Shown here: piece by piece, positions 25,382-64,000 of the stretch
Position numbering within the stretch: position 1 is the stretch's first letter
How the letters are laid out: every line of letters starts with the position of its first letter
NCBI GenBank assembly: GCA_009773335.1
Contig: WRPF01000010.1
Location: 1-64,000 of the forward strand
From: Caulobacteraceae bacterium
Lineage (GTDB): Bacteria > Pseudomonadota > Alphaproteobacteria > Caulobacterales > Aquidulcibacteraceae
Direction: 5' to 3'
Length of the DNA stretch: 64,000 nucleotides
Notes under the pieces: generated by a model
The model's database searches: none
The model's input: only the letters and a program-made list of their open reading frames with translations
Told to the model about the DNA's origin: nothing
Program-made: the position numbers and the translations under genes

Positions 25382-25908
25382 GCTGCAGCGGCTTCAATGA
25401 GCACGGTCGCGCTCACGGCGCTGATCGTCGAGGCGATGCGAAGCGCGGCTTGAACGCGCTCCAGAGAAACGCCACGCTTGTGCAGGTCGGACTCGTGCGC
25501 GTTGAGGCAAGAGCCACACCCGTGTACCGCAGACACCGCCAGCGCCCAGAGTTCGAAGTCGATTTTGTCGACGCCCGCCTGCGATAGCGCCAGCATGCTG
25601 AGGTGAGCCGGCGCAGCGCGGTAGTCGTGATTGTTCAAAAGATTGATGGCGCGGTAGTAAACGGTATTCATCGCCATGACGGTCGCGGCGGACTTCGCGG
25701 CTACCCTGGCGTCGGCGCTCAAGCGGGATGTGGCGTCTGCTTCGATCGCCTTTATTACCTGTGCGACGCCGGTGGCGTAGGCGCATGCCAGAAAGCAGCC
25801 CCACTTCTGTTGCTCCGTGAGCAGTGTTTCAGCACTCAGAACGTCGATGTTTACCTGCTGATCGGCGGCGTAAGCGGGCAGGGCGTCTCGCAGTGCAGTT
25901 AGCGACAT
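25378..25908 (-). CDS. AhpD-family alkylhydroperoxidase-like protein
   Basis: A 176-aa all-helical protein. The AhpD active-site pattern is seen as AVHGCGSCLNAHESDLHKRG (CxxC followed by His), and the length matches AhpD itself (about 175 aa). AhpD reduces peroxiredoxin AhpC through a lipoyl or thiol carrier; no ahpC gene is present here. It is translationally coupled to the P1B-4 ATPase downstream and lies about 100 bases after czcA, so it seems to serve against redox stress caused by metals (inference). Confidence 0.88.
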   Translation of the reverse strand: MSLTALRDALPAYAADQQVNIDVLSAETLLTEQQKWGCFLACAYATGVAQVIKAIEADATSRLSADARVAAKSAATVMAMNTVYYRAINLLNNHDYRAAPAHLSMLALSQAGVDKIDFELWALAVSAVHGCGSCLNAHESDLHKRGVSLERVQAALRIASTISAVSATVLIEAAAA

Positions 25909-26009
25909 TGTCGAACTCCTTCCACTACTGGCGGTCGCCCCCGCCGAGCCGACGGGTTGTTGACGAGCGCCGGCATCGCGATCCAGGTGCGGGCGTCAGT
26001 GACATCTGG

Positions 26010-29264: not shown

Positions 29265-29297
29265 GTTTACGTATCCGATTGGAAGACTGGCCGAGAC

Positions 29298-30341: not shown

Positions 30342-31666
30342 CAGTGGATCTCCTCGCCCGGCAGGGCCTCGGCGAAACGGGCGGTGAGGCGGTCAAGAGC
30401 CGCTTCGTTGGCATGATAGGAGCGCAGTGACTCCACGCGGCCTTGTCGCGCGTCCGACAACGAACGCTGAGCTTCGAGGACGTCGAGATAGGAGAAAGCG
30501 CCGCGGTCGTAGCCCTGCTGCGCCAATGAAAGCGCGCGCTGTGCTTGTGGAATGACGTCTTCCTCAGTGGCGCGCACAGCGGCGGCGTCGCTGGCGAGCG
30601 CGCGCTGCAGCGCGACAAACTCTCCGGTGATCGCGCGGCGGCGTGCTTCGAGATCAAACTCCGCGCGCCGTCGTTCGGCGTCGGCCCGTGCTATGGAGCC
30701 CTGGTTGCGGTCGAAAATGCCGAGCGGGATAGCGAAGCCCGCGACGAGGGCGCCATCGCCATTGCGATCCTCGAACCGCCGATACCCAAGACTCAGCGTA
30801 GGGTTTCTGTAGCTGAGGGATCGTTCGAGCCGCGTCGCCGCATCCAGCCGTTCGCGTTCTGCGGCGAGCCGCGCAAGATCGGGACTGGCGTCCGTTGGCA
30901 GGTCGTGACCGTGATCGCTGGTCTGGGGAACCGCGTACTCAGCGCGCAGCAGCGTGAAGGTCTGTTCGTCCCCAAGTCCGAGTAGTGTTGCGAGCCGACC
31001 ACGGGCTGTGGCGGCTGCGGCCAGCGCCCGTGTGAGTGCAATTCGGGCCTCCGCCAGCCCGGCTTGTGCGCGTGCGCCTGCCATCAGCGGATCTCGGGCC
31101 GCCGCGACGCGTCGCGCCACCGATGCATTCAGCGCCTCCGCGGTCGTCAATCTCTCGCGTTCTATGGAAACGATCTCTTCTGCCGCGAGCGCGTCGTAGT
31201 AGGCGGTCTGCACGTCGCGGATGAGATCGAGGCCGCGAAGCACACGTTCCAACTCGGCGCCATGCAACTCACGATCTGCGACCCGAATCCGCGCCTTGCG
31301 TTGACCGCCGAGTTCTACTTCCTGGGCGAGACTGATTGTGGTTTCAGCGCCTTGAAGGCCGCGTAGATCGTCTTTGCCGCCAAAGTTCTCGACTTCCGTC
31401 GAAAGCTCGGGGTTTAGGCGCACGCGCGCTTGACGCACACCGCCGCGCGCCGCGTCTACGCTGGCGCCGGCTGCGCGCAGCCCGGGATCGGCCTCCACCG
31501 CAAGGCCAACCGCATCGCGCAAGGCGAGGGGCGGGCTGGTCTGCGCGAGCGCCGCTGGCGCGAGCAAAGGCGCGGCGATCGCAAAGACCGCGAGATGTGA
31601 AGTCGCCGAGGCGAGGCGTCGCAAGACGCGCGCAGTGCGCCAAAGGGAACCGTAGGTGTCGGGCAT
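30341..31666 (-). CDS. czcC: CzcC-type outer-membrane efflux channel (TolC family)
   Basis: A 441-aa protein with an N-terminal signal ending in LLAPAALAQ, then two homologous halves of long alpha-helical hairpins, each opening with a LxLxxA..xA pattern (PLALRDAVGLAVEADPGLR and the QRALSLAQQGYDRGAFSYLD repeat). This is the outer-membrane factor fold; trimers form the exit duct for the CzcCBA complex. Its stop touches the czcB start and it lies 53 bases after the small periplasmic gene. Confidence 0.92.
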   Translation of the reverse strand: MPDTYGSLWRTARVLRRLASATSHLAVFAIAAPLLAPAALAQTSPPLALRDAVGLAVEADPGLRAAGASVDAARGGVRQARVRLNPELSTEVENFGGKDDLRGLQGAETTISLAQEVELGGQRKARIRVADRELHGAELERVLRGLDLIRDVQTAYYDALAAEEIVSIERERLTTAEALNASVARRVAAARDPLMAGARAQAGLAEARIALTRALAAAATARGRLATLLGLGDEQTFTLLRAEYAVPQTSDHGHDLPTDASPDLARLAAERERLDAATRLERSLSYRNPTLSLGYRRFEDRNGDGALVAGFAIPLGIFDRNQGSIARADAERRRAEFDLEARRRAITGEFVALQRALASDAAAVRATEEDVIPQAQRALSLAQQGYDRGAFSYLDVLEAQRSLSDARQGRVESLRSYHANEAALDRLTARFAEALPGEEIH

Positions 31667-43575: not shown

Positions 43576-45495
43576 TCATGCCTTTCGCTTCAAGGCGAGT
43601 CGTGCCTCGACAATCCGCAACAGCAGGGCGGGGTTGCGGTGGAAGTGCATTTTCGGCACGAGCACGCCCGGCCCGCGCTCAATGAAGACGACAGCCTTAT
43701 CTCGATCAAGCGACCGCACCTCTTGTACCGTTAAGAGGCGGCGACGCTCCGTTATCGACTCCGACGCGCCGCTCTGAGCGCCTCCGCCTACAGACGTATT
43801 CTTCCCGGTGGTCTTTGTCGCGCCGGTGCCGCCACTCTTTCCCTTGCCGCTTTGCGTGGTCAAATTGATGCTCTGCCCTGAACTGTCACTGTTCGTGATC
43901 CCGCGAGATAGCGTAAAGGACTCTGTGTCGCTGCTGCTTTTACCGGTGGTCTTCGTGACGCTTCCAGATTTCCCAACGCTCTCGCTGTTTGAACCGTTGA
44001 AGCTGCCGCCGTTAGGGCCGCCCCAACTCGACCCTGAAGTGGTGTTGTGCGACCAGCCCTCACTCGTGGCCTCGCTTTCGCTCGAACCGTCCGTGTGACT
44101 CCAGCCATGCGAGGCGCTTAATGAACGCGTGCGCGATTGGCCGCGATTGACGCCGACAGCGAGGCTATCTCCGGTCGTCTCCGACCAGCCACTTTGCTCG
44201 CTTTGGCTTTCGCCGGTGTTTTGTCCCTCGCTCCAGCTCCAATTCTTGCCCTCGTTCGTCGAGCGTGACCGATCGAGAACCGTCGTCTCGCCCGCGAGCT
44301 TCGCGATCCATTCACAGGTCTCGACATCGTTCGAGCCTAGAAATTGGATCACCTTGACTGCTGTAATCCGCGTATAGCCCTCCCGCCACGCGGCGCGCAT
44401 CTGAGCGATATTCTGGTAGGCAAGATGCAGGCTGATGCGCTCGCTCCGTAGTGCGCGCAGGCCTTCATCAATCATGCGCCAGGCACCGAAGGCTTTGGCT
44501 TCATCAATGACAATATGGACATCGGCGGCGGCGCGTCGTCGCTCCGCTGGCAAATGCGCGTAACGCATCGCCTGCAAGCTCACTTCCACCATGAGCCGGA
44601 GCCAAGGCGCGGCCATTCCGAGTTCGGCATCCGGCACCGTGATGTACACCGTCGCGCCGGCGTCTCGTACGTGGGACCAGTCGAAAGTCGAACGGGCGAG
44701 AACACGCGCCAGCCGCGGATCGTCCGTGAACTCGGTGTGCTGGCTGATCACCGACAAGTAGCCCTGCAATTCTTTGGGAGCCTTGTGGAAGAGCCGGAGC
44801 AACTCGTTGCCCGTTTGGCGCACGAAGTCCGGGGCGTAAGCGTTCCGCGCCATCGCGTCACAGAAGGTTTGAAAAGTGTCGGCGTCCGACCGAATGAAAG
44901 CGCGGAGGCGCATCAAGGTCTTCTCTTCGCTGGGGTCGGAGGCGACGTGTCCGATGATGCCGGTCAACAGCTCACGCGCCCGCACCTGCCAACGCACGCC
45001 GTCGTGACCGTCGTCATCGGCCTCACCGACGAGCGCTCTGGCAAGGCCCGCGCAGCGTGCGAAGTAGTCCACGTCGTTCGGGTTCAAGAGGGCAAGCGGG
45101 TTGCAGCCGTCGGTGTCGCCAGCGAGTCCGAACGGGTCGAGCGTGAAGACCGGACTTGAAAACATCTCGCGCACGGGACGGGTTAGACGCACCAGCTCGG
45201 CGTCCTTCGGGTCGATGACCACCATGCCAGCGCGTCGGCCGTTGGCACCGCGCACGTCATGGAGCAGCAGCGGAATGAAGACGGAGGTGCCTTTGCCTTC
45301 GCCTGGGTCGCCAAGGATCAAGCGATGGCCCTCCAATGCGTAGGCAATCACCCCGTCCCCATCTGCTGTAATTGGGACGCCCGCGACTTTGCGCGGCCAG
45401 TTCCGAAGGAGGGGCGATTGATCGGTCACGAGACGAAGCCCACGCTCTAATTTCGCGAGCGACCAATCCATGGGACGCACCACGGGCAGGGTCAT
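43576..45495 (-). CDS. Conjugative coupling ATPase (TraG/TraD-like) with Ser/Gly-rich tail
   Basis: A 639-aa protein. The Walker A motif is LILGDPGEGKGTSVFIPLLL, with Walker B IVIDEAKAFGAWRMIDEG and a downstream HLAYQNIAQM segment, as in TraG/VirD4/TrwB-like coupling proteins that pump DNA into the transfer channel. There is no obvious N-terminal TM domain. After about residue 415 lies a stretch of about 160 residues made mostly of Ser, Gly, Thr and Asn with spaced Trp (GWSETTGD, HGWSHTDG, SWGGPNGG), before a normal C-terminal end. The tail is unusual for this family. It is coupled by a 4-base overlap to the coiled-coil gene upstream. Confidence 0.82.
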   Translation of the reverse strand: MTLPVVRPMDWSLAKLERGLRLVTDQSPLLRNWPRKVAGVPITADGDGVIAYALEGHRLILGDPGEGKGTSVFIPLLLHDVRGANGRRAGMVVIDPKDAELVRLTRPVREMFSSPVFTLDPFGLAGDTDGCNPLALLNPNDVDYFARCAGLARALVGEADDDGHDGVRWQVRARELLTGIIGHVASDPSEEKTLMRLRAFIRSDADTFQTFCDAMARNAYAPDFVRQTGNELLRLFHKAPKELQGYLSVISQHTEFTDDPRLARVLARSTFDWSHVRDAGATVYITVPDAELGMAAPWLRLMVEVSLQAMRYAHLPAERRRAAADVHIVIDEAKAFGAWRMIDEGLRALRSERISLHLAYQNIAQMRAAWREGYTRITAVKVIQFLGSNDVETCEWIAKLAGETTVLDRSRSTNEGKNWSWSEGQNTGESQSEQSGWSETTGDSLAVGVNRGQSRTRSLSASHGWSHTDGSSESEATSEGWSHNTTSGSSWGGPNGGSFNGSNSESVGKSGSVTKTTGKSSSDTESFTLSRGITNSDSSGQSINLTTQSGKGKSGGTGATKTTGKNTSVGGGAQSGASESITERRRLLTVQEVRSLDRDKAVVFIERGPGVLVPKMHFHRNPALLLRIVEARLALKRKA

Positions 45496-47842: not shown

Positions 47843-50242
47843 GTGTTCCATCTGCGGGCAAAAGTAATCGGACGATCCGGAGGTCGATCGGCTGGCGGTG
47901 CCGTCGCGTATCGCGCAGGCAGCACCATAGCGGCTGCGAGTATCGCTTACCGAGCAGGGGAGTCCCTCACCGACCCCGCCTCCGGTCGCGTTTTCGATTA
48001 TCGCGCCAAGGGTCGCCTCGACGCCAATGGCTACGGCGTGCTGCACAAGGAGATCATGGCGCCCGAGGGCTCTCCAGCGTGGGCCTATGACCTACAGGGC
48101 CTCGTGAACAAGGTGGAGGCCACCGAGAAGCGCAAGGACGCACAGCTCTTTCGCGAACTCGAAGTCAGCCTGCCACGCGAGCTGTCGCTTGAAGACCAAA
48201 AGGCCCTTGTGCGGGCCTTCGTGGAGCGGACATGCGTGCGCGAGGGAATGGTCGCTGCCATCTTCATCCACAATGAACGGGCATCAGACGGCGGCGATAA
48301 CCCACATGCGCATGTACTTTTGACCATGCGCTCCATTGGCCCGGAGGGCTTTGGCGCCAAGCGACGGGAGTGGAATGCCGCCGCGCGCGTCCAAGATTGG
48401 CGAGAAGCCTGGGCGCAATATGCCAACGAGTTTTTGCTGGCGCATGGACACGCACCCCGTCTCGATCATCGCAGCCACCAAGAGCGCGGTCTCGACGTGG
48501 AGCCGGACAACTATATCGGCCCAACCAAGGGCCGCAATTTCGATGGCGTCGTGGTCGCCCACCGGCAAGCCGAGAGAACCGCCGGCAAGGCGCGCAATCT
48601 GCAAAAGGTCTCACTCGATCCACAATGGGTGCTCGACCAGATCACGCGCACCCAATCGACCTTTACCGAGCGCGACGTTGCGAAATTCATTCACCGCTAC
48701 ACGGCCGTCACAAACCAAGACGGTCGCTTCGCCGAGCTGCTCGCGAAAGTCATGCAATCCCCGGACCTCCAGAAACTTGCAGAAGCAGAGGGCCAAAAAC
48801 CTGCCCGTTTCACCACGCGCGCGATGCTTGCGGTCGAAACGGATCTCAAAGCCACGGCGGAGCGCCTTGCTGGGCGCGCAACGTCGGTGGTGCTCACCGA
48901 GGACTTGGCCGGATTGACGCCTGAGCAAGCGAAAGCGGCGAAAGCCATTCTTTCGGGACGTGACCTTGTTGCGCTGCACGGACTGGCGGGCACAGGAAAG
49001 ACCCACCTCCTTGCCGAGATTGCCGAAGTCTATGCGAAGGCAGGGCATCGCGTGCGTGGCGCCGCCTTGTCGGGGATTGTGGCCCGCAGTCTCGGCGACG
49101 CCGCGCATGTCCCATCGCAAACGATTGCATCCTTGCTTCGCGACCTTGAACGCGAGAGGCCGTTCCAGCCGCTTAGCAGGGGAGACGTTCTCATCATCGA
49201 TGAAGCCGGCATGATCGGCTCGCGTCAGCTTGCAAAGGTTTTGGAGCACGCCGAGCGTGTTGGGGCCAAGGTCGTGCTGGTTGGCGACACACAACAGCTT
49301 CAGGCGATTGAAGCAGGTGGTGCATTCAGAACCATCGTGAAGCGCCATGGCGCCGCTGAACTCAGCACCATCCAACGTCAGCGCCATGGCTGGCAGCGAC
49401 AAGCCAGCAGCGACCTTGCGCGCGGCGCTGTGCCTGAAGCGCTGGCGGCCTACCGGGCGCAGGGCAGTTTCCACCCCTCGCCCACTTCATCGGGTGCGAT
49501 GGAGGCTCTGATTGATCGTTGGCACGCAGACCGCAGTGCTGGCCAGTCCCAGGTTATTCTCGCGCATCGGCGCACCGAGACGCAGGCTCTCAACAGACTG
49601 GCGCGCGCCAAACTTCGGGCAGAAGGACTTCTCGGGCGCGAAGTCGATGTAACGGTCATGGTGATGGAGGAAGAGAATGGCGAGGTTTCGCCGCGCGCGG
49701 TGACTCGCTCCTTTGCGACGGGCGACCGCATGCTCTTCACGCGCAACGACAAGGCGCTTGGCGTGCAGAATGGTTCACTCGGGACGATTACGTCCCTCAC
49801 CCGTCAAGGCGCCTTCAGGGTTCGGCTCGATGACGGTCGCGAAGTGGCGTTCGACTCTACCCGCTACAGCTACTTGGAGCAGGGCTATGCAATGACCGTC
49901 CACAAAGCGCAGGGCGCTACGGTGGACCGCGCCTACGTGCTGGCGGGCGAGATGTTCGACGCGCATATGGCTTACGTCGCGCTGACCCGACATCGCGAGC
50001 GCGTTGATGTGTTTTACAACCGCACAGACCTCCCAACCGACGCCAAGCTGATGCGCACGCTCGCGCGTGATCGGACCAAAGACACAAGCATTGACTATGC
50101 CTTCCCCATCGTCATGGAGGCCGACTTGCCACGCGTACCGCCTGGCGTCGTGACCTCTGGCCCCATCAACGGCGACTGGGCATTGCTCCGTGGGCAGGAG
50201 CCGTCGATCGTTCGCGACATTGGGCTCGGCATTGGCGAATAG
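47843..50242 (+). CDS. traA: Ti-type conjugative relaxase/helicase TraA
   Basis: A 799-aa protein with GTG start. The MobA/MobL-type relaxase domain (residues 1-220) opens with HLRAKVIGRSGGRSAGGAVA and carries the metal-binding histidines in NPHAHVLLTMRSIG. A RecD/TraI-like helicase domain follows, with Walker A GLAGTGKTHLLAEIAEVY, Walker B LIIDEAGMIGSRQLAKVLEH and the YAMTVHKAQGATVDRAYV motif. It nicks at oriT, stays attached to the strand and unwinds it. TraA of pTi-like plasmids is longer (about 1100 aa), so this is a short form lacking the usual C-terminal extension. Confidence 0.93.
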   Translation: MFHLRAKVIGRSGGRSAGGAVAYRAGSTIAAASIAYRAGESLTDPASGRVFDYRAKGRLDANGYGVLHKEIMAPEGSPAWAYDLQGLVNKVEATEKRKDAQLFRELEVSLPRELSLEDQKALVRAFVERTCVREGMVAAIFIHNERASDGGDNPHAHVLLTMRSIGPEGFGAKRREWNAAARVQDWREAWAQYANEFLLAHGHAPRLDHRSHQERGLDVEPDNYIGPTKGRNFDGVVVAHRQAERTAGKARNLQKVSLDPQWVLDQITRTQSTFTERDVAKFIHRYTAVTNQDGRFAELLAKVMQSPDLQKLAEAEGQKPARFTTRAMLAVETDLKATAERLAGRATSVVLTEDLAGLTPEQAKAAKAILSGRDLVALHGLAGTGKTHLLAEIAEVYAKAGHRVRGAALSGIVARSLGDAAHVPSQTIASLLRDLERERPFQPLSRGDVLIIDEAGMIGSRQLAKVLEHAERVGAKVVLVGDTQQLQAIEAGGAFRTIVKRHGAAELSTIQRQRHGWQRQASSDLARGAVPEALAAYRAQGSFHPSPTSSGAMEALIDRWHADRSAGQSQVILAHRRTETQALNRLARAKLRAEGLLGREVDVTVMVMEEENGEVSPRAVTRSFATGDRMLFTRNDKALGVQNGSLGTITSLTRQGAFRVRLDDGREVAFDSTRYSYLEQGYAMTVHKAQGATVDRAYVLAGEMFDAHMAYVALTRHRERVDVFYNRTDLPTDAKLMRTLARDRTKDTSIDYAFPIVMEADLPRVPPGVVTSGPINGDWALLRGQEPSIVRDIGLGIGE

Positions 50243-51797: not shown

Positions 51798-52017
51798 CCA
51801 CAGAACGCCATAGATGCAGAGCAGAACCGCACAAGCCCAGAAATGCGAAGCGCGTTTTGTGGCCTTATATCTCGCTTTCTTCGCGTCGGCACATTCTGTG
51901 GTTCTGTAGTACCAGAAGTACAAAGCAACAAAATTGCGCGGTTATGGACTTGGCGAACTCTGCGCCTGTGTAATTCTGAATCTCAGCAATTATGTAGCTC
52001 CATGTGGAAGTGCCGCC

Positions 52018-52773
52018 GTGAAAACACTCTCAATCGTTTCAACCAAAGGCGGGGTCGGGAAGACGACCCTCGCGGTGCATATTGCAGTCGCGGCCCAGAA
52101 GGCGAAGCAGAAGACACTTGTCATCGACCTCGATCCGCAAGGCAGCGCCGCGCAATGGGCAAAGGATCGCGTACGTCTCGCGGAGCAACATGGGCGGTGG
52201 TTCGATACGCCGCTTGATGTGCGTCGCCTATTTGCGAATGATCTCGTGGAAGAGATCGCCGCTGCCAAGCGCCAAGGCTACCAGCTCGTCATTATCGACA
52301 CGCCGCCACATGCCGACTTTCCGGCCGCGCGCGCCGTGGAAGTAGCGGACCTCGTCTTGATGCCAGTGCGCCCTGGCTACTTCGACCTGCATGCAGCTAA
52401 GGCGACCATCAATCTCGTGCACGACATGCGCGCACATGCGTTCTTCGTGGTGAACCAAACGCCGCACACGTCGCCGGGCATGGCGGCGGACGCCGCGTCT
52501 TATCTCGCCAGCAAGGACATCACGCCCGCGCCCGTTTCAATTACGATGCTCCAACCCTATGTGCGCGCGCTGCGCGACGGTTTGACCGCGCCAGAGATTG
52601 CGCCTGAGGGGCGGAGCGCCGAGGAGATCAATGCACTTTGGAGCTGGCTCGCGCAGGCGCTGATTAATGCCCCTCAGAAGAAGGTCGTTGAAGCAGCGCC
52701 CGAGCCAGCGCCAGCGATGCTCGACGATCCATTCGCGCGTCTGCGCCGACCAATCATTGAAGGGGCCGCATGA
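52018..52773 (+). CDS. parA: ParA-family partition ATPase
   Basis: A 251-aa protein with GTG start. The deviant Walker A is STKGGVGKTTLAVHIAVAAQ, followed by VIDLDPQGSAAQWA and VIIDTPPHADFPAARAVEVA. It belongs to the short ParA type that lacks an N-terminal HTH, typical of plasmids and integrative elements. It should segregate or retain the element with the small partner encoded immediately downstream (4-base overlap). An upstream in-frame ATG (51934) is disfavoured as it adds non-conserved residues. Confidence 0.9.
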   Translation: MKTLSIVSTKGGVGKTTLAVHIAVAAQKAKQKTLVIDLDPQGSAAQWAKDRVRLAEQHGRWFDTPLDVRRLFANDLVEEIAAAKRQGYQLVIIDTPPHADFPAARAVEVADLVLMPVRPGYFDLHAAKATINLVHDMRAHAFFVVNQTPHTSPGMAADAASYLASKDITPAPVSITMLQPYVRALRDGLTAPEIAPEGRSAEEINALWSWLAQALINAPQKKVVEAAPEPAPAMLDDPFARLRRPIIEGAA

Positions 52774-54812: not shown

Positions 54813-55744
54813 AGGCCGCACGCTTCGCGCTGACATGCGCCGTTGTGGGTCTCGCCATCCTCCAGATCATTCTCACTTGGGACTTCTGGGGTACGTTCGG
54901 AGCGGGTAGCGGCGCCCTGACGCTCGTCTTTCAGGGCATCGGCGCCTTGCTTGCCGTGATCGAAGCGCTTGCCCTTGTCGTCGCAGGGCAGGCGGCGGAT
55001 CGCGGCGAATTCAATCGTGCGAATGTCGCTCGTGCGCTTTTCATTCCGCTCTTCGTCATCAACCTAGCAGGCGACATCGGTGCCATCGCGACATTCAGCG
55101 CGGCCGAGGAAACGCGCCGGGACCAGCAAGCTGCAGGGTTCGACGCGAACACACGCATTGCCGCCGAGGCGGGCAGGGAGGCCGAGCGCCTTCGCGCAAT
55201 TCTGGAGGCAGATGGCTTCAACCTGCCATCAAGCGCTCTCAGACCGCAGGCCGAGAATGCAACCGGTCGCCTCGCGCGGTGGGAGGCGACTGGCACCCTG
55301 GTCCCGCGAACGGTGCGCGCGGAGGCGGCGCGGCTGGAGTCAGCCCTCGCAACCGCTACCGAAATGGAAGCCAAGGTCGAGGCGCGGGATCAGGCCCTTG
55401 CGGCCAATGCCGCCATTGGCGCGAGGCCGAGGGAAGCGCATCCGCAGTTCGAGGCACTCTCCACCTTGCTTCAGGGGGTGGGCGTGCAGGCGACGTCGGA
55501 CAGCGTCCGAGTCTGGCTGGCGGCCGGGGTCGGGCTGGCGGTTAAGCTCTGGCTGGCCTTCGGGCTATGGGCCGCATCGGCTCGGGCGTTGCCTCCGCTG
55601 AAGCCCGAACCGGCGACCGCGGAACCGCCCGCTCCACCCGACGCGGTTGCCGAGCCACTTCGGCCGGAGAGCGCTCCGTCAAAAGCCCTGACGCACCCGC
55701 CGGTAATCCAAGACGTTCTGGACGAAATATGGGGCGGGAGTTGA
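54809..55744 (+). CDS. Membrane/coiled-coil protein of unknown function, type B
   Basis: A 311-aa protein with GTG start overlapping the previous stop. N-terminal TM helices (FALTCAVVGLAILQIILTWD and on to about residue 100) are followed by an Ala/Glu/Arg-rich coiled coil, a TM helix near 240-255 (LAAGVGLAVKLWLAFGLWAA) and a Pro-rich tail. The architecture and several short motifs match the leftward protein at 50258. It was presumably duplicated from a common ancestor and diverged. The function is unknown; it lies in the maintenance part of the element. Confidence 0.62.
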   Translation: MKAARFALTCAVVGLAILQIILTWDFWGTFGAGSGALTLVFQGIGALLAVIEALALVVAGQAADRGEFNRANVARALFIPLFVINLAGDIGAIATFSAAEETRRDQQAAGFDANTRIAAEAGREAERLRAILEADGFNLPSSALRPQAENATGRLARWEATGTLVPRTVRAEAARLESALATATEMEAKVEARDQALAANAAIGARPREAHPQFEALSTLLQGVGVQATSDSVRVWLAAGVGLAVKLWLAFGLWAASARALPPLKPEPATAEPPAPPDAVAEPLRPESAPSKALTHPPVIQDVLDEIWGGS

Positions 55745-55842
55745 GCAGGCACCGTCACGTCGGTGTCGTTTCCTGTCGTTGATCAAGCGAATCTTGTCAG
55801 TTTGGGCAACGCAAGGCAGACTGAAACAAAAGGGAAACATTT

Positions 55843-57675
55843 ATGCCACGCGCCGCGCGACAATCGCTCAAGACTGCGCCGGTTCGCGTTGTTCGCAAAC
55901 CGGCGCAAAGTCGCGCGGATATTTCTTCGTTCGCCTCTGTGCGGGGTATGCTTACTGGATGGGTGTCGTCCTTCTCCAATGGGCTCGTGCGAAACCGCGC
56001 GGCTCAGGGGCTACTCGCGAACGCAATCGAAGCTTATTGTACGGCGCTTCAGGGCATTGAAGGGGAGTTCGCGCATACTCCTGCGCCAACGAACTCGTTC
56101 GACCTTGATCTCGGCGCAAAAGCGTTGTCGCGCGCAATTGTCGAGGCAGCGTCGCTAACGACGCCTTCGCGCGCGGCGTTTGAGATAGGTGCCCTCTATA
56201 CCCTTGCACTTTCACCAGAGTTCAGGTCGGAGAACGGCGTCTATTACACTCCCCCTTCGCTAAGTGCACATTTGCTAGATATGGCGGAAGCGGGTGGCGT
56301 GGATTGGCGCACGGCGCGCGTTCTAGATCCAGCGTGCGGAGGAGGGGCGTTTCTGTCGCCAGCTGCCGAACGTATCGTAGCGGCGTTGAGTGACTGCCTG
56401 CCGTCGCTCGTTCTGCAAAATGTCGCGAGCCGTCTGCGGGGGATGGAGCTCGACCCGTTCGCCGCTTGGATGTCTCAGGTCTTCCTCGAAATCACGTTGC
56501 GAAACGTCACTCGCGCCGCCGGCCGAGCGCTGCCAAATCTTGTAAGCGTGTGCGACAGCCTTGATGCGTCGCCACCTGAGGACGGCTTCGATTTGGTCAT
56601 CGGCAACCCACCCTTTGGCAAGGTCAAGTTATCCGTAGAGCAACGCGCTCGTTACAAGCGGTCACTATACGGGCATGCGAATCTGTACGGACTATTTCTC
56701 GATCTAGCTGCGCGGTTTGCTAAGTCAGGCGGGGTTATTGCCTACGTAACGCCGACTAGCTTCCTTGCGGGCGAATACTTCAAAGCGTTAAGGGCTACCC
56801 TTCTTGAGGAAGCGCCTCCAACGGCAATTCACCTGGTTGCTGATCGGAAAGGTGTGTTCGAGGGCGTTCTGCAGGAGACCGCGCTCTCGACATTCAAGCG
56901 CGGCAGTAAGCGTGTTCCCATTGCTGCCCGGCATATCCAGCCCTCCTCGTCGGAGACGTTAGAGGCCACTGACCTCGGTTCGATCCGGCCGCCGATTGAG
57001 CCAGAAAGCCCGTGGCTGTTGCCGCGTTCGGCAGCGGATGCAGTTCTCATAAAACGCCTTGCCGGCAAGCGCACGCGTCTCGCGGATTGGGGCTACACAG
57101 TCTCTACCGGTCCGCTTGTATGGAATCGACATAAGCCGCAGCTCACTGCCAAACTGAAAAAGAACAGTTTGCCGTTGATCTGGGCCGAGGCAATTACAGC
57201 GGACGGTCGGTTCGTTTTTCGAGCCGACAAGAAGAACCATACTCCCTATTTTAACGTCGAAAGGGGGGACGACTGGCTCGTGACACACAAGCCGTGTGTG
57301 CTTCTTCAAAGGACAACTGCCAAAGAGCAGCACAGGCGAATTATCGCAGCGGAGTTGCCCGCCGCCTTCGTAAAGAAGCACGGTGGCGTTGTGATTGAAA
57401 ACCACATCAACATGGTGCGGCCGATCGGCGCCACGGCGAAAATTTCGCCCGCAGCACTCGCTGCTGTTCTCAATAGCTCAGTTATTGATCAGGCGTTCCG
57501 CTGCATCAGTGGCAGTGTTGCGGTCTCGGCTTTCGAGTTGGAGGCGTTGCCGCTGCCTACGGTCAGGCAGATGGCGGCGATTGAGAAACTTGTGGCGGCA
57601 AAATCAAGCCCCGCCGTCATTAACGCCAAGCTTGCCGCGATCTACGGGGTTGAATCGCCTGGGCGAGCGCGATGA
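55843..57675 (+). CDS. N6-adenine DNA methyltransferase (restriction-modification)
   Basis: A 610-aa enzyme. Motif I is VLDPACGGGAFLSPAAERIV and motif IV is DLVIGNPPFGKVKLS, the NPPF catalytic tetrad of amino-methyltransferases acting on adenine. An N-terminal helical region of about 120 residues and a C-terminal region (from about 380) that should read the DNA target complete it. It resembles Eco57I/BsuBI-type methylases of type II systems. Its stop overlaps the endonuclease gene start by 4 bases. It protects the host from the linked nuclease. Confidence 0.9.
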   Translation: MPRAARQSLKTAPVRVVRKPAQSRADISSFASVRGMLTGWVSSFSNGLVRNRAAQGLLANAIEAYCTALQGIEGEFAHTPAPTNSFDLDLGAKALSRAIVEAASLTTPSRAAFEIGALYTLALSPEFRSENGVYYTPPSLSAHLLDMAEAGGVDWRTARVLDPACGGGAFLSPAAERIVAALSDCLPSLVLQNVASRLRGMELDPFAAWMSQVFLEITLRNVTRAAGRALPNLVSVCDSLDASPPEDGFDLVIGNPPFGKVKLSVEQRARYKRSLYGHANLYGLFLDLAARFAKSGGVIAYVTPTSFLAGEYFKALRATLLEEAPPTAIHLVADRKGVFEGVLQETALSTFKRGSKRVPIAARHIQPSSSETLEATDLGSIRPPIEPESPWLLPRSAADAVLIKRLAGKRTRLADWGYTVSTGPLVWNRHKPQLTAKLKKNSLPLIWAEAITADGRFVFRADKKNHTPYFNVERGDDWLVTHKPCVLLQRTTAKEQHRRIIAAELPAAFVKKHGGVVIENHINMVRPIGATAKISPAALAAVLNSSVIDQAFRCISGSVAVSAFELEALPLPTVRQMAAIEKLVAAKSSPAVINAKLAAIYGVESPGRAR

Positions 57676-58727
57676 CGATGCTTCCTCTCATACCTGTCCC
57701 AGACATCCAGCAGCGGCTCTCGGTTATTTTTCCCGAGGGCACGGCACACAGAGCAAATTGTGTCTCGCTAATCGCCGCGCGTATCGTGTTTGTGATGCTG
57801 TATATCGATGCAGTCGAAGGGGCGGACGTATGGCTTCGCCCGAGCCAAGTTGCCCGAATGACGGACGCGCAAGCGAAACTTGGCGATGACGCAGCGCGTG
57901 GTGACTGGCGCACAGCATCGCTTAGTCCTGGGACAGGCGAAATTCCCGGACGTTGGTATGCAAGTGACACAAGAGAATCCATACGCGACGACAGTTTGCG
58001 GATGGGGTTAATTGCTATCGGCGCAGTCATAGAGAAGGCGGGGTTAGCAACAACATCGCCCGCAGGCCGCTATGCGCTCCAATCCGCGTTCGCGGCGCTA
58101 ATGAACCCTACGCTCAGCGGAGCGGCCTTGGAGAAGGCTATACATGCGTGGCAAACGACGCACCTGAACGCAGCGGCGCTTGCGCGGATCGTGCTTTTGC
58201 GAAGGGGGACCTCAGGCGGCGACCCCGTGCTTGTGAAGTTTCCTAACGGTGAGACGCGCCGCATGGCGCCAGGTCCCAGCTCTCTTTTGTCGAAGGCTGC
58301 GATTGAGGATTTTGCTCCTCGGTTTCTGAAACAACCCGCTTTGCTCTGGTTGAGTGAGAGCGCGACAAAGGTGGTCGAGCGTGATGATGTCCTCGCCAAA
58401 TCGATAGGCATCGTTATCGAGCCAGATCGTAATTTGCCGGACATCATATTGGTTGATCTTGGCAGAACTCCGCCTCAGCTCGTATTTGTTGAAGTTGTGG
58501 CGACTGACGGCCCCGTCACCGTGACACGCAAAGCAGCATTACTGGAGCTTTCAAACAAAGCTGGCTTTGCTCATGACCACGTATCATTCGTGACGGTTTT
58601 TGCCGACCGAGGCGATGCGGCCTTCAAGAAGGCCGTGCCGGCGCTAGCGTGGGGAGCCTACGCTTGGTTCATGAGCGAACCAGACAACTTGATAGAACTA
58701 GTGGATGCGCCGCGTTGGTTGACATGA
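57672..58727 (+). CDS. BsuBI/PstI-family type II restriction endonuclease
   Basis: A 351-aa protein. The C-terminal part carries LPDIILVDLGRTPPQLVFVE followed by VVATDGPVTVTRKAALLELS, the D...(E)VxxxxGPVxxxR signature of the BsuBI/PstI nuclease domain. The N-terminal part is helical, as in that family. By homology the target may be a CTGCAG-like site, but specificity cannot be read from sequence. It is coupled to the methyltransferase and followed by the 66-aa gene. Confidence 0.82.
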   Translation: MTMLPLIPVPDIQQRLSVIFPEGTAHRANCVSLIAARIVFVMLYIDAVEGADVWLRPSQVARMTDAQAKLGDDAARGDWRTASLSPGTGEIPGRWYASDTRESIRDDSLRMGLIAIGAVIEKAGLATTSPAGRYALQSAFAALMNPTLSGAALEKAIHAWQTTHLNAAALARIVLLRRGTSGGDPVLVKFPNGETRRMAPGPSSLLSKAAIEDFAPRFLKQPALLWLSESATKVVERDDVLAKSIGIVIEPDRNLPDIILVDLGRTPPQLVFVEVVATDGPVTVTRKAALLELSNKAGFAHDHVSFVTVFADRGDAAFKKAVPALAWGAYAWFMSEPDNLIELVDAPRWLT

Positions 58728-58766
58728 TCGGCGCATACTTGGTCGGGCAGGGCGAGGGCGCGGACT

Positions 58767-58967
58767 ATGGCAGACGCTGAGGTTGAGGCCAAGGAACTGA
58801 CCAACTTCGAGCGCCTCAAGGCTGCGCTACCGGAAGTCGGAATTGCACGCGCATTGCTCGATACGTGGCAAACCGGCGACGCCGCAGATCGCATCATCAG
58901 AATGGTAAAGGTCGCGCAGCCGGGTCACGCGACAAACGAGGCCGACGATGACGCGCCCAAGGATTAA
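58767..58967 (+). CDS. Small protein within the restriction/ATPase operon
   Basis: A 66-aa acidic protein (MADAEVEAKELTNFERLKAA..., DTWQTGDAADRIIRMVK). It has no TM helix and no motif. It overlaps the SMC-like ATPase gene by 20 bases and lies 39 bases after the endonuclease stop. Its position suggests a control or adaptor subunit for the ATPase, but it does not look like an HTH controller protein. Confidence 0.6.
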   Translation: MADAEVEAKELTNFERLKAALPEVGIARALLDTWQTGDAADRIIRMVKVAQPGHATNEADDDAPKD

Positions 58968-61467
58968 GCGCATCGCGATCACGGGTTTCCGGGGTTTTGG
59001 CAGCGTGCAGCAAATTGCCGAACCTGCCGAAACGGTTTCGGTATTTTGGGGTGGCAACAGCAACGGCAAAACCAGTTTCGGTGAGGCTATTGAGTTTCTG
59101 CTGACGGGGCAGATTGCGCGGCGCGAATTGCTGGCCGGTGCGAAAGATGAATTCGCCGATTCACTTCGTAACGCGCACGTCGATGATAAAACTGTAGTGG
59201 CAGTGGACATCGTGTTTGCCGATGCGAGCGGCACAGACCACGCAGTGCGTCGCGAATTGAAAGACGATTATCAGCGGGGCAGTGCGGCCGGTTGCGTTAG
59301 CGTGTTGACCATCGACGGAAAGCCGGCCGCGGAGGGCGACCTTCAATCGGCCCTTGGCTTGACGCTATTTCCTGCTCCACTTCAGGCGCCGGTGCTCTCG
59401 CAACATTCCCTGGGCTTTTTGTTTTCGTCGTCCCCCACGGATCGTGCGACCTATTTCCGCGCCGTTTTAGACACGCAGGACTTGGAGGATTTTCGCCAAG
59501 CGGTCTCCGTTCTAGACCAATCTCTCGAAAAGCCGGTGGGTAAGGAAATAGACGACTTCGCTGAGCTGCAGAAAACGCCCGCCTTTGCAGACGCAGCTAA
59601 GCGGCTGCTCAAATGCAAAGACAAGGCCGCCGCCGAGAAAGTTTTGAGCGGAGAACTTGGCCGAGTGCTGGAAGAGGCCGGGCTTGTGCCAGAGCCGGGG
59701 CTTTCCGCGCGCGCTGGGCAACTTGTCGCCGAATTAAATCGCCGCCGCGACTTAGTGTTTCCGATTCAACTTCTTGCGCGCAAAGCGTTTGTCCCGGCTG
59801 TTGATCAGGGCGAGACGGTAAGACTGGCTATCGAGAAGCTTGCTCAAGAGGCGGCTCTTTGCGACGCGGAAGCTGTGCGGCTTATCGGTCTCTTCGAGAC
59901 GGCGTTGAAGATCCCACACCTGGGAGAGCACCTTCCCGAAGACTGCCCCTTGTGTGGCAGCGCAGCGGCGCTGACGGCGGAGCGAGTAGCTTGGATTAAG
60001 GGGCAGACGCAGGCGACGGCGGCCTACCAGTTGGCTCGCAAGACACTCACCGAGCTTCTTGGACGCCTAAGCACCCTCAACGATAGCTCTAGGCAATCGG
60101 CGCACAGCGCACTTCCGTTGCTTGCGCAGCGCTCTCCGAGCGAGAGACGGGCAGCGGGCTTCACGCGATCGAGCCTGAAGGCGCTCGGCATCGACGACCA
60201 ACTTGTTGCTGATTGGATTGCGGACTATCGCACTCTGCTTCGTAGCGGTCGTAAAGCACGTGTTGCGTTTGCTGCCGTGAACTCCGAACTCAAGCAAGCG
60301 ATTGACCAATTCGATACGTGGAGCCGACAGGCTGACCTTCTGTCGGCATTGCACATCTTGGCGTTGGCACAGGCTGATCTTCTGTCTGCGGTCGCATCGC
60401 ATGAAGGCCCCGCCTCCCGTCTCAATGAGGCTCTCACCACAATCATTGATCAATCTTCGGCGGTCGCTGGCTGGGAGGCTTTGGCCAATCGAGGTGCTGA
60501 TCCTGAGGGCGCTGTCGCGGCAGCGCGCTTGCTTGCGACCTTCGCCGACCAGCAAAAAGCCGTCGCAAAGGCGCTAACGGATATAGATAAGGCGATAGGC
60601 ACCGTTCAGGATGCGAAGTTTGCGACGCTGAGCGATGCAATCCGAACTTGGTGGGATCGATTGCGCCCCGACGAAGTCACCTTTTTCGACGCCGTTCAGC
60701 GTCGTGGTGCCAAGACGCGCCGCATGATCGACATGCGTGCCGGGCTCTCTCTCAAAGACGATAAAAGCGATCCTAAATTTCGGGACGCTGTTGCCGTCTT
60801 CAGTCAGTCGCAGCTTCACTGCCTTGGGCTAGCGATATTCCTAGCGCGTGCTTCATCTGAAGGTGTCGGTTTCATTGTGCTCGATGATCCGGTCTTAACG
60901 AGTGATGATGACTACCGTCCGAACTTCGCATCTACGGTCATTGAAGGACTGTTGGCCGAAGGTATTCAGACCATCATTGCGACTCAAGACCACGCCACGG
61001 CGAAAGATATCGAAACACGATGGGCGCATCGGAACGTCGCGCGCTTCAATATAGTTCGGAACGACCCTCTTCTCGGGTCAGAAATTCGCAATGAGGACGA
61101 TCAGCTTGCGGCGATGATTGCTCGCGCGCAGCCGTTCTGCAATTCGGAAGACCCTGAGCAGCGAAAGCTCGGCGGGACCAGAGTGCGGGAAGCTATCGAG
61201 CGCTTCTGCAAGCTGCTCTTGGTGAAGGACCGGGTGGGGAAGGGCGATACGCTGGCCTCGATCACCGACTATGATGGGAAGAACTTTGGCAACTTCAGCA
61301 ATGACGTGAAGGCGTTGCTCATCCAAGACGCGTCGCACCCTGGAAAGCTTCAAGCCGCTCACAACTATGTCACGCCCGGCACACATGATGATACGCCGCC
61401 GCCGAAGGCGCAGCTGAAAGTCGCCTTGGGTGATCTTCGGCGGCTGAAGGCGGATTACTTAGGCTGA
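58948..61467 (+). CDS. SMC/RecF-like AAA ATPase with CxxC hook, defence-linked
   Basis: An 839-aa protein. Residues 1-45 contain the Walker A VFWGGNSNGKTSFGEAIEFL. A helical/coiled-coil middle carries DCPLCGSAA (about residue 333), a zinc-hook-like CxxC. The C-terminal lobe has the ABC signature-like FSQSQLHCLGLAIFLA (about 620), Walker B FIVLDDPVLTSDDDY and TIIATQDHATAKDIETRW. The last about 120 residues (ending SHPGKLQAAHNYVTPGTHDD and so on) form a further domain. This is the layout of Rad50/RecF-like ATPases used in anti-phage systems such as Lamassu, Septu and RloC. None of these can be assigned; the family is not recognised beyond that. Confidence 0.75.
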   Translation: MTRPRIKRIAITGFRGFGSVQQIAEPAETVSVFWGGNSNGKTSFGEAIEFLLTGQIARRELLAGAKDEFADSLRNAHVDDKTVVAVDIVFADASGTDHAVRRELKDDYQRGSAAGCVSVLTIDGKPAAEGDLQSALGLTLFPAPLQAPVLSQHSLGFLFSSSPTDRATYFRAVLDTQDLEDFRQAVSVLDQSLEKPVGKEIDDFAELQKTPAFADAAKRLLKCKDKAAAEKVLSGELGRVLEEAGLVPEPGLSARAGQLVAELNRRRDLVFPIQLLARKAFVPAVDQGETVRLAIEKLAQEAALCDAEAVRLIGLFETALKIPHLGEHLPEDCPLCGSAAALTAERVAWIKGQTQATAAYQLARKTLTELLGRLSTLNDSSRQSAHSALPLLAQRSPSERRAAGFTRSSLKALGIDDQLVADWIADYRTLLRSGRKARVAFAAVNSELKQAIDQFDTWSRQADLLSALHILALAQADLLSAVASHEGPASRLNEALTTIIDQSSAVAGWEALANRGADPEGAVAAARLLATFADQQKAVAKALTDIDKAIGTVQDAKFATLSDAIRTWWDRLRPDEVTFFDAVQRRGAKTRRMIDMRAGLSLKDDKSDPKFRDAVAVFSQSQLHCLGLAIFLARASSEGVGFIVLDDPVLTSDDDYRPNFASTVIEGLLAEGIQTIIATQDHATAKDIETRWAHRNVARFNIVRNDPLLGSEIRNEDDQLAAMIARAQPFCNSEDPEQRKLGGTRVREAIERFCKLLLVKDRVGKGDTLASITDYDGKNFGNFSNDVKALLIQDASHPGKLQAAHNYVTPGTHDDTPPPKAQLKVALGDLRRLKADYLG

Positions 61468-62510
61468 CCCGAGAGCTTGGCATGCAGGCCTTCTGGCCGA
61501 AGCTGTGTGTAGCGCTTCAGCATCTTCCAATCTTTGTGGCCAGTGACGAGCGGCACCTGCTCAATTGTGAGGCCTGCCTCGAACAAGCGGCTGGTCGCCT
61601 CATGACGCAAGTCATGGAAGTGCAGGTCGATGATCTTTAGCTCTTTGCACGCGCGCTGAAACGCACTGCCCGCCGACTTCGCATTGTACGGGAAGCATGC
61701 TGGCGGATTGAGCCGAAGCTCACGTTGCTCTTCGAGAAGCGCCCAGGCGTCATAGCCGGTCGCTGCGAGAAGGGGGACGCGCTGGTTGTTGCCATCCTTC
61801 TTCCGAGGGTCTTTGCGGTCAGGCACGAGGATCGTGCGGTTCTTGGCGTCAAGCGTGTCCCATTCAATCCGGAAAATCTCATCGATGCGCATAGCGGTCG
61901 CGATGGCGAACTTGACCACGCGCGTCATAGGTATCGTCAGGCGGTCGTTGCCATCGAAGTACGCGAAGAGTTTTTGCAGCTCCGCATCGGTTGGGCGCCG
62001 ATCGCGCTCCATGCCGGCCCCTACAAGGCCAAGGCGACGGAGCGCAATACGCGCGAGCTTCACGGACTCCGTATTGATGGCGATGCCGTGCACGGCGGCG
62101 GCGTGCGTGAGGACAGTGCCGATGAAGGAGATATCGACCGCGAGGGTGGCAGGCCCGGCTCCCTCCTTGGCTCTCTGGCGCCCATAGAGGATCAGGCGCT
62201 CCCGCGTCAGGTTGGCGAGGGGTGTTTCGCCTATCTCCTCCCGTAGGTGCTCCAGCACATGCCGCTTCGAGCGGCGAAGTGGCTTGCCGACCGCATGGAG
62301 GTCCTCGATATGCAGGTCGATAAGGCTCGCGAACGTATCCTTGCGGCTAATACGCTTCGTTGACGGGTCGATCTCCTTATCGATCGAATGCTCGGCCTCG
62401 CGGGCCCATTCGTCCGCGTCCATCTTGCGGTAGAAGGTTTTGGAAAGCGCATGACCATTTCTGCGGATTTGCACCCGCCACTTGCCCCGGCGCTTCTGGA
62501 CCGTTGCCAC
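61455..62510 (-). CDS. int: Tyrosine integrase of the dusA-targeting element
   Basis: About 351 aa. The N-terminal arm-binding region is ATVQKRRGKWRVQIRRNGHA, with a core-binding helical domain and a catalytic domain showing Arg in ATAMRIDEIFRIEW, HxxR in HFHDLRHEATSRLF and the last His/Tyr in TGHKDWKMLKRYTQL. The GTG at 62510 is preferred over ATG 62597: the extra 29 residues would be non-conserved and would run over the arm-type sites at 62554-62571. It overlaps the convergent ATPase gene by 13 bases. It lies next to the dusA fragment, the normal place for this integrase family. Confidence 0.9.
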   Translation of the reverse strand: MATVQKRRGKWRVQIRRNGHALSKTFYRKMDADEWAREAEHSIDKEIDPSTKRISRKDTFASLIDLHIEDLHAVGKPLRRSKRHVLEHLREEIGETPLANLTRERLILYGRQRAKEGAGPATLAVDISFIGTVLTHAAAVHGIAINTESVKLARIALRRLGLVGAGMERDRRPTDAELQKLFAYFDGNDRLTIPMTRVVKFAIATAMRIDEIFRIEWDTLDAKNRTILVPDRKDPRKKDGNNQRVPLLAATGYDAWALLEEQRELRLNPPACFPYNAKSAGSAFQRACKELKIIDLHFHDLRHEATSRLFEAGLTIEQVPLVTGHKDWKMLKRYTQLRPEGLHAKLSGQPK

Positions 62511-62553
62511 GGGATGCCACTCCAAACCGACCGCTTCCGAACCCACTTGGCGC

Positions 62554-62650
62554 GGGCACAATCCGGGCACAAGGAGCCCAAAAACGTGCGGCAACATGCG
62601 GAATCTTTAGCGAACAAATGGGCACAAATGACGCTTGGCCGTGTGTGCCC
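62554..62650. promoter_or_regulatory. Integrase arm-type sites at the right end of element 2
   Basis: GGGCACA occurs at 62554-62560 and 62565-62571 (11-bp period), again at 62620-62626, and inverted as TGTGCCC at 62644-62650. The heptamer and period are the same as in the left-end arms. They lie between the integrase start and the dusA core, as expected for the P' arm. Confidence 0.75.
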
Positions 62651-62677
62651 AACGGCTTGAATATGCTACAAAAGGCT

Positions 62678-62755
62678 ATGAAAAACAACGATCACCGCTT
62701 CTCCGTCGCTCCAATGATGGACTGGACGGAGACCGCCATTTATTCAGCCGCTTAG
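62678..62755 (+). pseudogene. dusA 5' fragment (right end of element 2)
   Basis: A 25-codon frame MKNNDHRFSVAPMMDWTETA then a few residues and a stop. The first 17 residues match DusA perfectly in pattern. After the core it diverges because another element begins. A complete dusA, if present, must lie beyond the window. Confidence 0.88.
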
Positions 62756-63185: not shown

Positions 63186-64000
63186 ACCGCTCCGGATTCT
63201 TCGGAGGCCAAGTTATTTGAATCAGGCGGCCATGGCCGTCTGCTCATGTGCTGCGTAGTAATTCGCCTCCGCCTCGGCGGGCGGGATATGTCCGACCGGC
63301 TCCATCAGTCTCGTGTTGTTGTACCAGTCTACCCATTCCAGCGTGGCGTATTCCACGGCGTCCATCGTTCGCCATGGTCCGCGCCGCCAGATGACTTCCG
63401 CTTTGTAGAGTCCGTTGACGGTCTCGGCGAGGGCGTTGTCATAAGAGTCCCCCACGCTGCCCACGGACGGCTCCAGTCCTGCCTCGGCCAAGCGCTCCGT
63501 GTACGCAATCGCAAGATATTGCGACCCTCTGTCCGAGTAATGTACGAGGCCGCCGCCATGGTTGCTTTTTGGGGGCCGGCGATCATGGACGGCCTGTTCG
63601 AGTGCATCGAGCACGAAGGCAGCGTGCGCCGTACGCGACACGCGCCAGCCGACGATCTTTCGTGCGAAGACATCGGTGACGAAGGCCACATAGACGAAGC
63701 CTGCCCATGTCGCCACGTACGTGAAATCGGCGACCCACAGCATGTTCGGCGCGGGCGCTTTGAAGTTGCGGTTCACCTTGTCGAGAGGACATGGCGCGGA
63801 CTTGTCCTGGATAGTCGTGCGATGCGGCTTGCCGCGTATGACGCCCTTTAATCCCAGGGCCTTCATGAGCCTCGATACCGTGCAGCGCGCGATCTCGAAG
63901 CCTTCCCGCAAGAGCTGCTTCCAGACCTTGCGCACGCCGTAGACGCCGAAATTCTCGTCGAAGACGCGTTGAATTTCCGGCTTCAGCGCTTCGTCACGCT
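63183..64000 (-). mobile_element. IS3-family insertion sequence (partial)
   Basis: The terminal TGAACCGCTCCGGATTCTTC at 63183 looks like an IS3-family inverted repeat, starting with TG. The transposase frame inside reads leftward and the other end is outside the window. Confidence 0.72.
63222..64000 (-). CDS. IS3-family transposase OrfB (partial)
   Basis: At least 259 residues; the N-terminus continues past the window edge (the frame is open upstream of the first ATG at 63935, reading GVYGVRKVWKQLLREGFEIA). The DDE catalytic residues are seen in LWVADFTYVATW, VHYSDRGSQYLA and DNALAETVNGLYKAE. This is the integrase-core half (OrfB) of IS3 elements, normally made by frameshifting from OrfA. 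It inserted into an HTH gene of element 3. Confidence 0.93.
   Translation of the reverse strand, partial: RDEALKPEIQRVFDENFGVYGVRKVWKQLLREGFEIARCTVSRLMKALGLKGVIRGKPHRTTIQDKSAPCPLDKVNRNFKAPAPNMLWVADFTYVATWAGFVYVAFVTDVFARKIVGWRVSRTAHAAFVLDALEQAVHDRRPPKSNHGGGLVHYSDRGSQYLAIAYTERLAEAGLEPSVGSVGDSYDNALAETVNGLYKAEVIWRRGPWRTMDAVEYATLEWVDWYNNTRLMEPVGHIPPAEAEANYYAAHEQTAMAA

Follow-up and report, generated by a model that had tools for sequence, protein, structure and literature searches.

The 66-residue gene and the Rad50-like ATPase gene that close a predicted four-gene operon at positions 55,843 to 61,467 of the window (the whole 64,000-nucleotide stretch of Caulobacteraceae DNA analyzed) are a separable unit, which is found elsewhere without restriction-modification (R-M) genes and which in another branch of the family is represented by one longer protein. 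The linkage between this pair and R-M genes is recurrent but facultative, and a dedicated four-gene system is unlikely. The operon itself is carried as cargo by a mobile element, at the end where the integrase is located (draft genome, 285 contigs).

The operon and its mobile-element setting

An earlier note, made from the sequence of the window, had described four genes linked by short junctions. The open reading frames (ORFs) were confirmed, all on the forward strand: the start of the endonuclease gene overlaps the end of the methyltransferase gene by 4 bases, a 39-base gap separates the end of the endonuclease gene from the 66-residue ORF, and that ORF overlaps the start of the ATPase gene by 20 bases. 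The features of the operon and its surroundings are as follows.

43579-45495, upstream of the operon: VirD4/TraG-type coupling protein
47843-50239, upstream of the operon: MobA/MobL relaxase fused to a helicase
51934-52770, upstream of the operon: ParA
55843..57675, + strand: N6-adenine DNA methyltransferase of a BsuBI/PstI-type II R-M system (610 aa)
57672..58727, + strand: BsuBI/PstI family type II restriction endonuclease (351 aa)
58767..58967, + strand: 66-aa presumed partner of the ATPase, with a like-sized ORF in the same place in relatives
58948..61467, + strand: Rad50/SMC-like ABC ATPase with a CPLC hook and a helical C-terminal domain (839 aa; SMC_N, AAA_23)
61186..61386, + strand: codons R747 to H813 within the ATPase gene, holding candidate active-site residues (R747-x3-E751, H797 with Ser before it, H813)
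61455..62597, - strand: tyrosine integrase bordering the cargo (Phage_integrase, 77.5 bits)

The integrase gene, which was absent from the earlier note, and the ATPase gene overlap at their 3′ ends by 13 bases. The coupling protein, relaxase and ParA are those of a conjugative or mobilizable element, to which the integrase probably belongs, and a weak AlpA/HTH_17-like ORF, scoring below the cut-off, is also located upstream of the operon. Genes for a P-type ATPase, an AcrB-type RND pump, an HlyD-like adaptor and an outer-membrane factor at 23354-31666, consistent with metal or drug efflux, are probably cargo of the same element, and the ORF at 63222-63935 is what we take to be an IS3-type transposase. 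A pattern scan of 55400-62700 found no sigma-70 type promoter and four terminator-like sites, versus 8.8 in shuffles, two of the four being inside the operon on the minus strand; both results say little in this organism.

The restriction-modification genes

As judged by their sequences, the methyltransferase and endonuclease are an ordinary BsuBI/PstI-type II R-M system. The N6-adenine methyltransferase matched Eco57I (57 bits), N6_Mtase (40 bits) and PADLOC MTase_II (765 bits), and it is 48-59% identical to those of 16 other loci. The endonuclease encoded by the adjoining gene has both the catalytic domain of the family (BsuBI_PstI_RE, PF06616, 134.7 bits) and its N-terminal domain (RE_N, PF17728, 100.4 bits), for which the cut-offs are 27. 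It also matched PADLOC REase_II with 408 bits over residues 2-344 of its 351 and is a relative of SdaI (PDB 2ixs, E 1.5e-14).

Type II systems are generally regarded as acting on their own, and the statement in the earlier note that systems of the BsuBI/PstI type normally stand alone was borne out. The endonuclease was present in 10 of 385 genomes of the class, own genome included, and in all nine others a methyltransferase gene adjoins it; the fetched flanks of these nine held no relative of the window ATPase (at L039 the flank stops 1.3 kb downstream, and the endonuclease ORF of L042 is shortened). On plasmids the endonuclease was matched in 140 records, six of which were read. No such ATPase was found at five of the six, and the sixth, Xanthomonas L026, has an ATPase of the fused form described below upstream of its BsuBI/PstI genes, an arrangement other than that of the window. 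Closely similar Xanthomonas R-M genes are present without the ATPase in L031. Because R-M genes of this type are usually without the ATPase, the junction in the window is unusual. Conversely, the endonuclease was unmatched in all three genomes that hold the ATPase loci L011, L012 and L014, in a search that had no positive control.

In the two Xanthomonas plasmid systems a ribbon-helix-helix gene, perhaps a controller, overlaps the start of the methyltransferase gene (L026 10849-11043 and L031 3534-3728). No ribbon-helix-helix gene was seen directly before the methyltransferase gene of the window.

The ATPase and its relatives

The CxxC hook reported for the 839-residue ATPase in the earlier note was confirmed as CPLC at residues 333-336; the Walker B motif is FIVLDDPV from residue 642, and the C-terminal domain covers about residues 700-839. 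The best Foldseek match of the predicted structure, a low-confidence model, was Rad50 (7zr1_D, E 1.5e-9). With a pLDDT of 55.5 from a four-row alignment, the model of the whole ATPase is good only for the Rad50/SMC-like look of the head and coiled coil. A PDB sequence search with the ATPase gave SMC heads only (E 0.02 or worse), and a search with a profile of five relatives gave mainly SMC and Rad50 heads, followed by PtuA, GajA and RecF, with no PrrC/RloC entry among its 53 listed matches. PHROGs held no match for the window ATPase. PADLOC matches did not exceed 95 bits in the four members of the ATPase family that were scanned, and this family could be a new defense gene family.

Relatives of the ATPase were rare in the samples searched, which amounted to 1,592 genome-searches in overlapping sets, the search of its own genome included. 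Matches were obtained in 4 of 101 related genomes at E 0.001 (own included, two others partial), in 2 of 385 genomes of the class at 1e-8 (its own and a partial match in G358) and in 2 of 299 genomes of a phylum sample at 1e-40 (the window and again the place in G719). The order to which L014 belongs yielded 3 of 397 genomes, namely that of L014 itself, G672 and G719, and the families of G719 (1 of 198) and G672 (1 of 11) returned the known matches themselves. None of 200 genomes of another order matched at 1e-40, a sample with no positive control. No relative was identified in viral_contigs. We rejected a phage origin, since neither viral_contigs nor the phage records, the latter searched with the L060 and L008 proteins, held a relative.

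Three forms of the ATPase were distinguished. The near clade consists of the window, L060 (40% identity, full length) and L061 (38%, with the last part of the ATPase missing); the ATPases of L060 and L061 are 50% identical. Both were found by ATPase similarity alone, and they are the only two relatives of the near clade known beside the window, one with a truncated ATPase. The two-gene form, at about 25% identity, comprises L005 (broken), L006, L011, L014 and a Phenylobacterium cassette whose ATPase is identical in L002, L012, L013 and L043 and was counted once. The two-gene locus L065, matched over 22% of L060 and without the C-terminal pattern described below, is a doubtful member, and L015, a contig-end fragment, was left out of the counts. 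Matches to the fused form came from 28 plasmid records, 21 of them typed conjugative, and from the chromosomes of 20 of the 5,426 E. coli genomes searched; 24 of the plasmid matches and 17 of those in E. coli cover at least 80% of the query. In 15 of the 20 E. coli genomes listed, the copy is at 75.6-75.7% identity to the Klebsiella gene; of these only E14 was read, where the fused ATPase gene (L070 7998-10610) has prophage tail genes on one side and, on the other, a broken SOS-peptidase gene that adjoins ssrA.

The 66-residue ORF is probably a real gene, because its codon-position GC (0.70/0.42/0.67) is gene-like, resembling that of the ATPase gene (0.66/0.46/0.62), and because each of the eight two-gene relatives (L060, L061, L002, L005, L006, L011, L014 and L065) has in this place an ORF of 65-85 residues that runs 4-29 bases into the ATPase gene. 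The search for remote homologs that had been proposed for this protein gave no match in Pfam, PADLOC or NCBIfam; the protein also found nothing on plasmids. Its sequence was not significantly alignable with the five small proteins compared (at least 35 of 500 shuffles reached the score). The small ORFs of L060 (65 residues) and L061 (66 residues) are homologous to one another (0 of 500 shuffles, z 12.7). In the two fused-form relatives compared, an N-terminal extension of approximately 80 residues stands in the place of the small protein, and the alignment of these two extensions with four small proteins is suggestive only.

Genes beside the ATPase loci

In all three members of the near clade, the window included, R-M genes on the same strand immediately precede the unit. 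L061 represents a second species with the gene order of the window, having a methyltransferase (57%), an endonuclease (54%), 190 nt, a 66-residue ORF and the ATPase, and among the loci read it is the only other in which BsuBI/PstI genes are followed by the small ORF and ATPase. The ATPase unit of L060 begins 536 nt after a run of genes for an SNF2-type helicase, a type III Mod, a 231-residue ORF and a type III Res with an endonuclease domain. Since the gaps from the R-M genes to the pair vary (39, 190, and 536 nt), the pair may carry its own promoter.

Beyond the near clade, a restriction gene is adjacent to one of the six other two-gene loci, the doubtful L065, where a Res-type enzyme is encoded 282 nt downstream. 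Restriction genes are therefore present beside three of the eight two-gene loci other than the window (two of seven without L065), and none was recognized beside the other five, the neighbor calls being from annotation for L005 and L006 and from a Pfam scan of ten neighboring ORFs, two of them matchless, for L011, L012/L013 and L014. For the fused form, 21 loci were read (19 of the 28 plasmid records and 2 of the 20 E. coli genomes). At four of them a restriction gene in the same orientation is no more than 1 kb away: BsuBI/PstI in L026, Pac25I/XcyI in L047, MvaI/BcnI in L055 and an Mrr-like enzyme in L008. At the remaining 17, where the plasmid gene tables are incomplete, no restriction gene is listed within 1 kb on the same strand. 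Included in the 17 are L054 (split), L050, which has a lone DNA methyltransferase gene 1.3 kb downstream, L049, which has an annotated restriction endonuclease gene 3 kb upstream among transfer genes, and L068, which has a broken ATPase and, about 0.5 kb upstream, a PDDEXK nuclease gene that was not called a restriction gene. At L066 no genes are listed for approximately 7 kb around and after the match.

Two other sets of neighbors were observed. In the Phenylobacterium cassette the gene 18 nt downstream of the ATPase gene (L012 10467-11186 and L002 508-1227) matches PADLOC HamC2 (DUF3223) with 250 bits, and perhaps encodes another exchangeable partner of the pair. At L065 1818-6537 an annotated DNA repair exonuclease / YhaN pair, perhaps a Rad50-Mre11-like set, is divergent from the small ORF and ATPase.

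The survey of co-occurrence that the earlier note had suggested for the four genes recovered the same order in L061 and found R-M genes to be mostly absent from the wider family. That note had named an ATPase mostly without R-M neighbors as counting against its proposal; this is the pattern of the wider family and not that of the nearest clade, with R-M genes upstream in three of three. The composite reading of that note was borne out in part; one dedicated four-part system found no support, given the 5 of 8 two-gene and 17 of 21 fused loci at which no restriction gene was recognized alongside, the type III partners in L060, and R-M genes of the window and L061 that are not sisters.

The last point comes from trees of 17 methyltransferases and of 17 endonucleases. 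In both, L061 groups with the plasmid systems L029 and L030, and the window is placed elsewhere on a long branch. Holding the window and L061 together was rejected for each R-M gene (AU p 3.1e-5 and 2.8e-5), p values that are somewhat optimistic as the test was chosen after the tree had been seen, because of the shared gene order. For the ATPase, by contrast, the closest kin of the window in this analysis are L060 and L061, at 38-40% identity. As the R-M genes are non-sister and the ATPases near kin, either the pair or the R-M genes were exchanged: the ATPase pair may have joined BsuBI/PstI systems twice, or the R-M genes may have been replaced beside the pair. With L060, the near clade has three different R-M backgrounds.

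The C-terminal domain

Structure prediction and remote homology searches, recommended in the earlier note for the C-terminal domain, provided a helical model (pLDDT 62.6), with which, at this low confidence, a fold search gave no PDB match below E 1. We consider R747, E751, and H797 or H813 to be candidate active-site residues, whose pairing across the forms is dependent on the alignment. Every sequence in alignments A1 (5 of 5) and A4 (14 of 14) keeps R747, E751 and H813; the invariant histidine is H813 in these two and H797 in alignment A3. The arrangement R747-x3-E751-x45-H797, with a serine before the histidine, is common to the window and L060, and a larger alignment pairs R747 with a different arginine of the fused forms. 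An R-x3-E-x36-52-His pattern is present in 19 of 25 intact proteins, window included, and missing from L065 and five fused forms; triad-like spacing also appeared in 665 of 5000 shuffled window C-terminal domains (13%). The truncated ATPase of L061 ends at residue 767, before both histidines, and shows the R-x3-E/His pattern only outside the domain. The sequence that follows its end, in which Pfam shows nothing, is presumably the start of an insertion sequence.

RloC and PrrC belong to AAA_13 (PF13166). This family had no match to the window ATPase at E up to 1; L060 scored 20.2 bits versus a cut-off of 36, and the distant relative L006 scored 42.2 bits. One AAA_13 protein, L072, which carries a CxxC hook and scores 520 bits with PF13166, has R-x3-D and SH motifs that align on R747-x3-E751 and S796-H797 in one multiple alignment; in another, only its SH pair falls on S796-H797. 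Alignment by hhalign to the AAA_13 proteins L072 and L073 reached only the Walker B segment and not the C-terminal domain. The PADLOC candidate PDC-S06 was rejected, as the window ATPase scored 18.6 bits over the Walker B part only versus 472 bits for L072. A HEPN identity found no support either. The motif R.{4,6}H is absent from the last 150 residues of the window ATPase (L060 has one match, at 732, ahead of the R-x3-E site), and the profile and fold searches gave no usable match, DUF7014 being the most frequent family in the profile search (2 of 14 members, best E 0.0041).

Possible roles of the pair

Our tentative preference is that the pair is a facultative, exchangeable accessory of R-M systems that would work like PrrC/RloC. 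In the accessible parts of the sources, PrrC and RloC link an ABC head both to an RNase and to the state of the R-M system or DNA breaks (PMC2610378, PMC12707154, PMC3710099), and hook-bearing Rad50-like heads (Rad50, Lamassu) sense DNA ends or abnormal DNA (PMC10586767). By analogy, the head and hook of the ATPase might sense DNA ends, or the disturbance when restriction acts or a phage blocks restriction, while the small protein might hold or license the ATPase. The C-terminal domain (R747, E751, H797 or H813), perhaps an RNase, could then provide a second line of defense. Because the R-M partners are of different types, the pair would more probably respond to some general effect of restriction or of its inhibition than to a single enzyme. 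There is precedent in the R-M guardian systems and in the guards that answer anti-restriction, PrrC for type I systems and PARIS, that appear in the accessible text of PMC12707154. A more specific version is doubtful, namely a roaming two-gene guard that attaches to type II or type III R-M systems. Its hook-bearing head would detect cut DNA or a block on restriction, and its C-terminal domain, RNase-like and of a new kind, would shut down the cell. If true, this guard would be the first recognized behind type II systems, as far as the literature found tells.

Plain juxtaposition is nearly as likely as the accessory reading. The R-M genes and the ATPase pair would then be independent mobile units that share variable spots of mobile elements, and chance adjacency in such defense-rich spots stays the main rival because both favor mobile elements. 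Most of the loci read have the pair or fused form without recognized R-M genes, or R-M genes without the ATPase, and of the closely similar Xanthomonas R-M genes, those in L026 have an ATPase and those in L031 have none. An integrase gene adjoins the ATPase gene in the window, L011 and L012, and the E14 copy is placed between a broken SOS-peptidase gene and prophage genes, likewise as independent mobile units would be. Chance adjacency accounts less readily for a nearest clade in which three of three are directly downstream of different R-M systems on the same strand, or for the same gene order occurring twice with non-sister R-M genes.

Two further explanations are improbable. One follows the logic of Lamassu/ABC-3C, with the 66-residue protein as the middle component and the upstream restriction nuclease as the effector used by the ATPase. 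The small gene between nuclease and ATPase is indeed placed like the Lamassu middle component in the accessible part of PMC10586767, LmuB was the best PADLOC name for the ATPase (57.4 bits, best of 41 families at E up to 1), and Foldseek, with the low-confidence model, also lists Lamassu 9hqu_A (E 5.4e-6). Yet the LmuB scores are partial and, in our judgement, as no cut-off was given, weak; the Walker B motif has Asp (LDDP) and not the Gln usual in LmuB; the genes upstream are a plain R-M pair, with the plain BsuBI/PstI model matching the endonuclease nearly end to end and no LmuA-type effector recognized; and at several loci the pair is not preceded by a nuclease gene. On these tests, the weak LmuB score and the failure to recognize an LmuA led us to reject Lamassu membership. 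The other explanation, to which we give similarly little credence, is that the pair protects or repairs DNA ends, helping the mobile element to survive breaks made by its own or host restriction enzymes, and is not anti-phage. It draws on the resemblance of the ATPase head and hook to Rad50, the 21 of 28 fused-form plasmid records typed conjugative and the umuD/umuC or SOS-type genes beside some loci, but the operon has no Mre11-type nuclease partner and the conserved extra C-terminal domain is missing from Rad50/SbcC, according to the accessible part of PMC2610378. A Rad50/SbcCD identity was rejected, because a scan of nine window proteins encoded around the locus revealed no Mre11/SbcD partner.

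If the pair is an R-M accessory, it would make layered defense around type II restriction directly testable. In the near clade the unit follows type II and type III systems that are unrelated to each other, and other forms of it stand by themselves on conjugative plasmids and in one prophage region or more. No title among the literature matches listed deals with an SMC-like ATPase beside a BsuBI/PstI R-M system, and a 2020 classification of ABC ATPases may already contain the family.

Comparison with known systems

The two R-M enzymes of the window match those of BsuBI/PstI-type II systems over nearly their full length, and their gene order and overlap are the usual ones; the difference is that in the window a small ORF and a Rad50-like ATPase follow. 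Shared with Lamassu/ABC-3C systems are a Rad50-like ATPase with a hook (LmuB), a small gene upstream and a nuclease gene before it, whereas the window ATPase has an extra C-terminal domain. PDC-S06 proteins are also long ABC ATPases, and L072, the one member examined, has a hook and is extended at its C terminus. In the accessible part of PMC2610378, PrrC is linked to type I R-M systems, RloC has a zinc hook, a length of 658-897 residues and the motif Arg-x3-Glu-x36-52-His, and 8 of 73 RloC are linked to type I or III R-M systems. The window ATPase has an ABC head, a CxxC hook, an LDDP Walker B and a similar size (839 residues), and its R-x3-E-x45-SH fits the RloC motif as given in that part of PMC2610378, a spacing also present in 13% of shuffles. 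Homology between its C-terminal domain and those of RloC/PrrC could not be demonstrated. In common with RloC/PrrC the pair is linked to R-M systems, and it differs in having a separate small partner and links to type II as well as type III systems.
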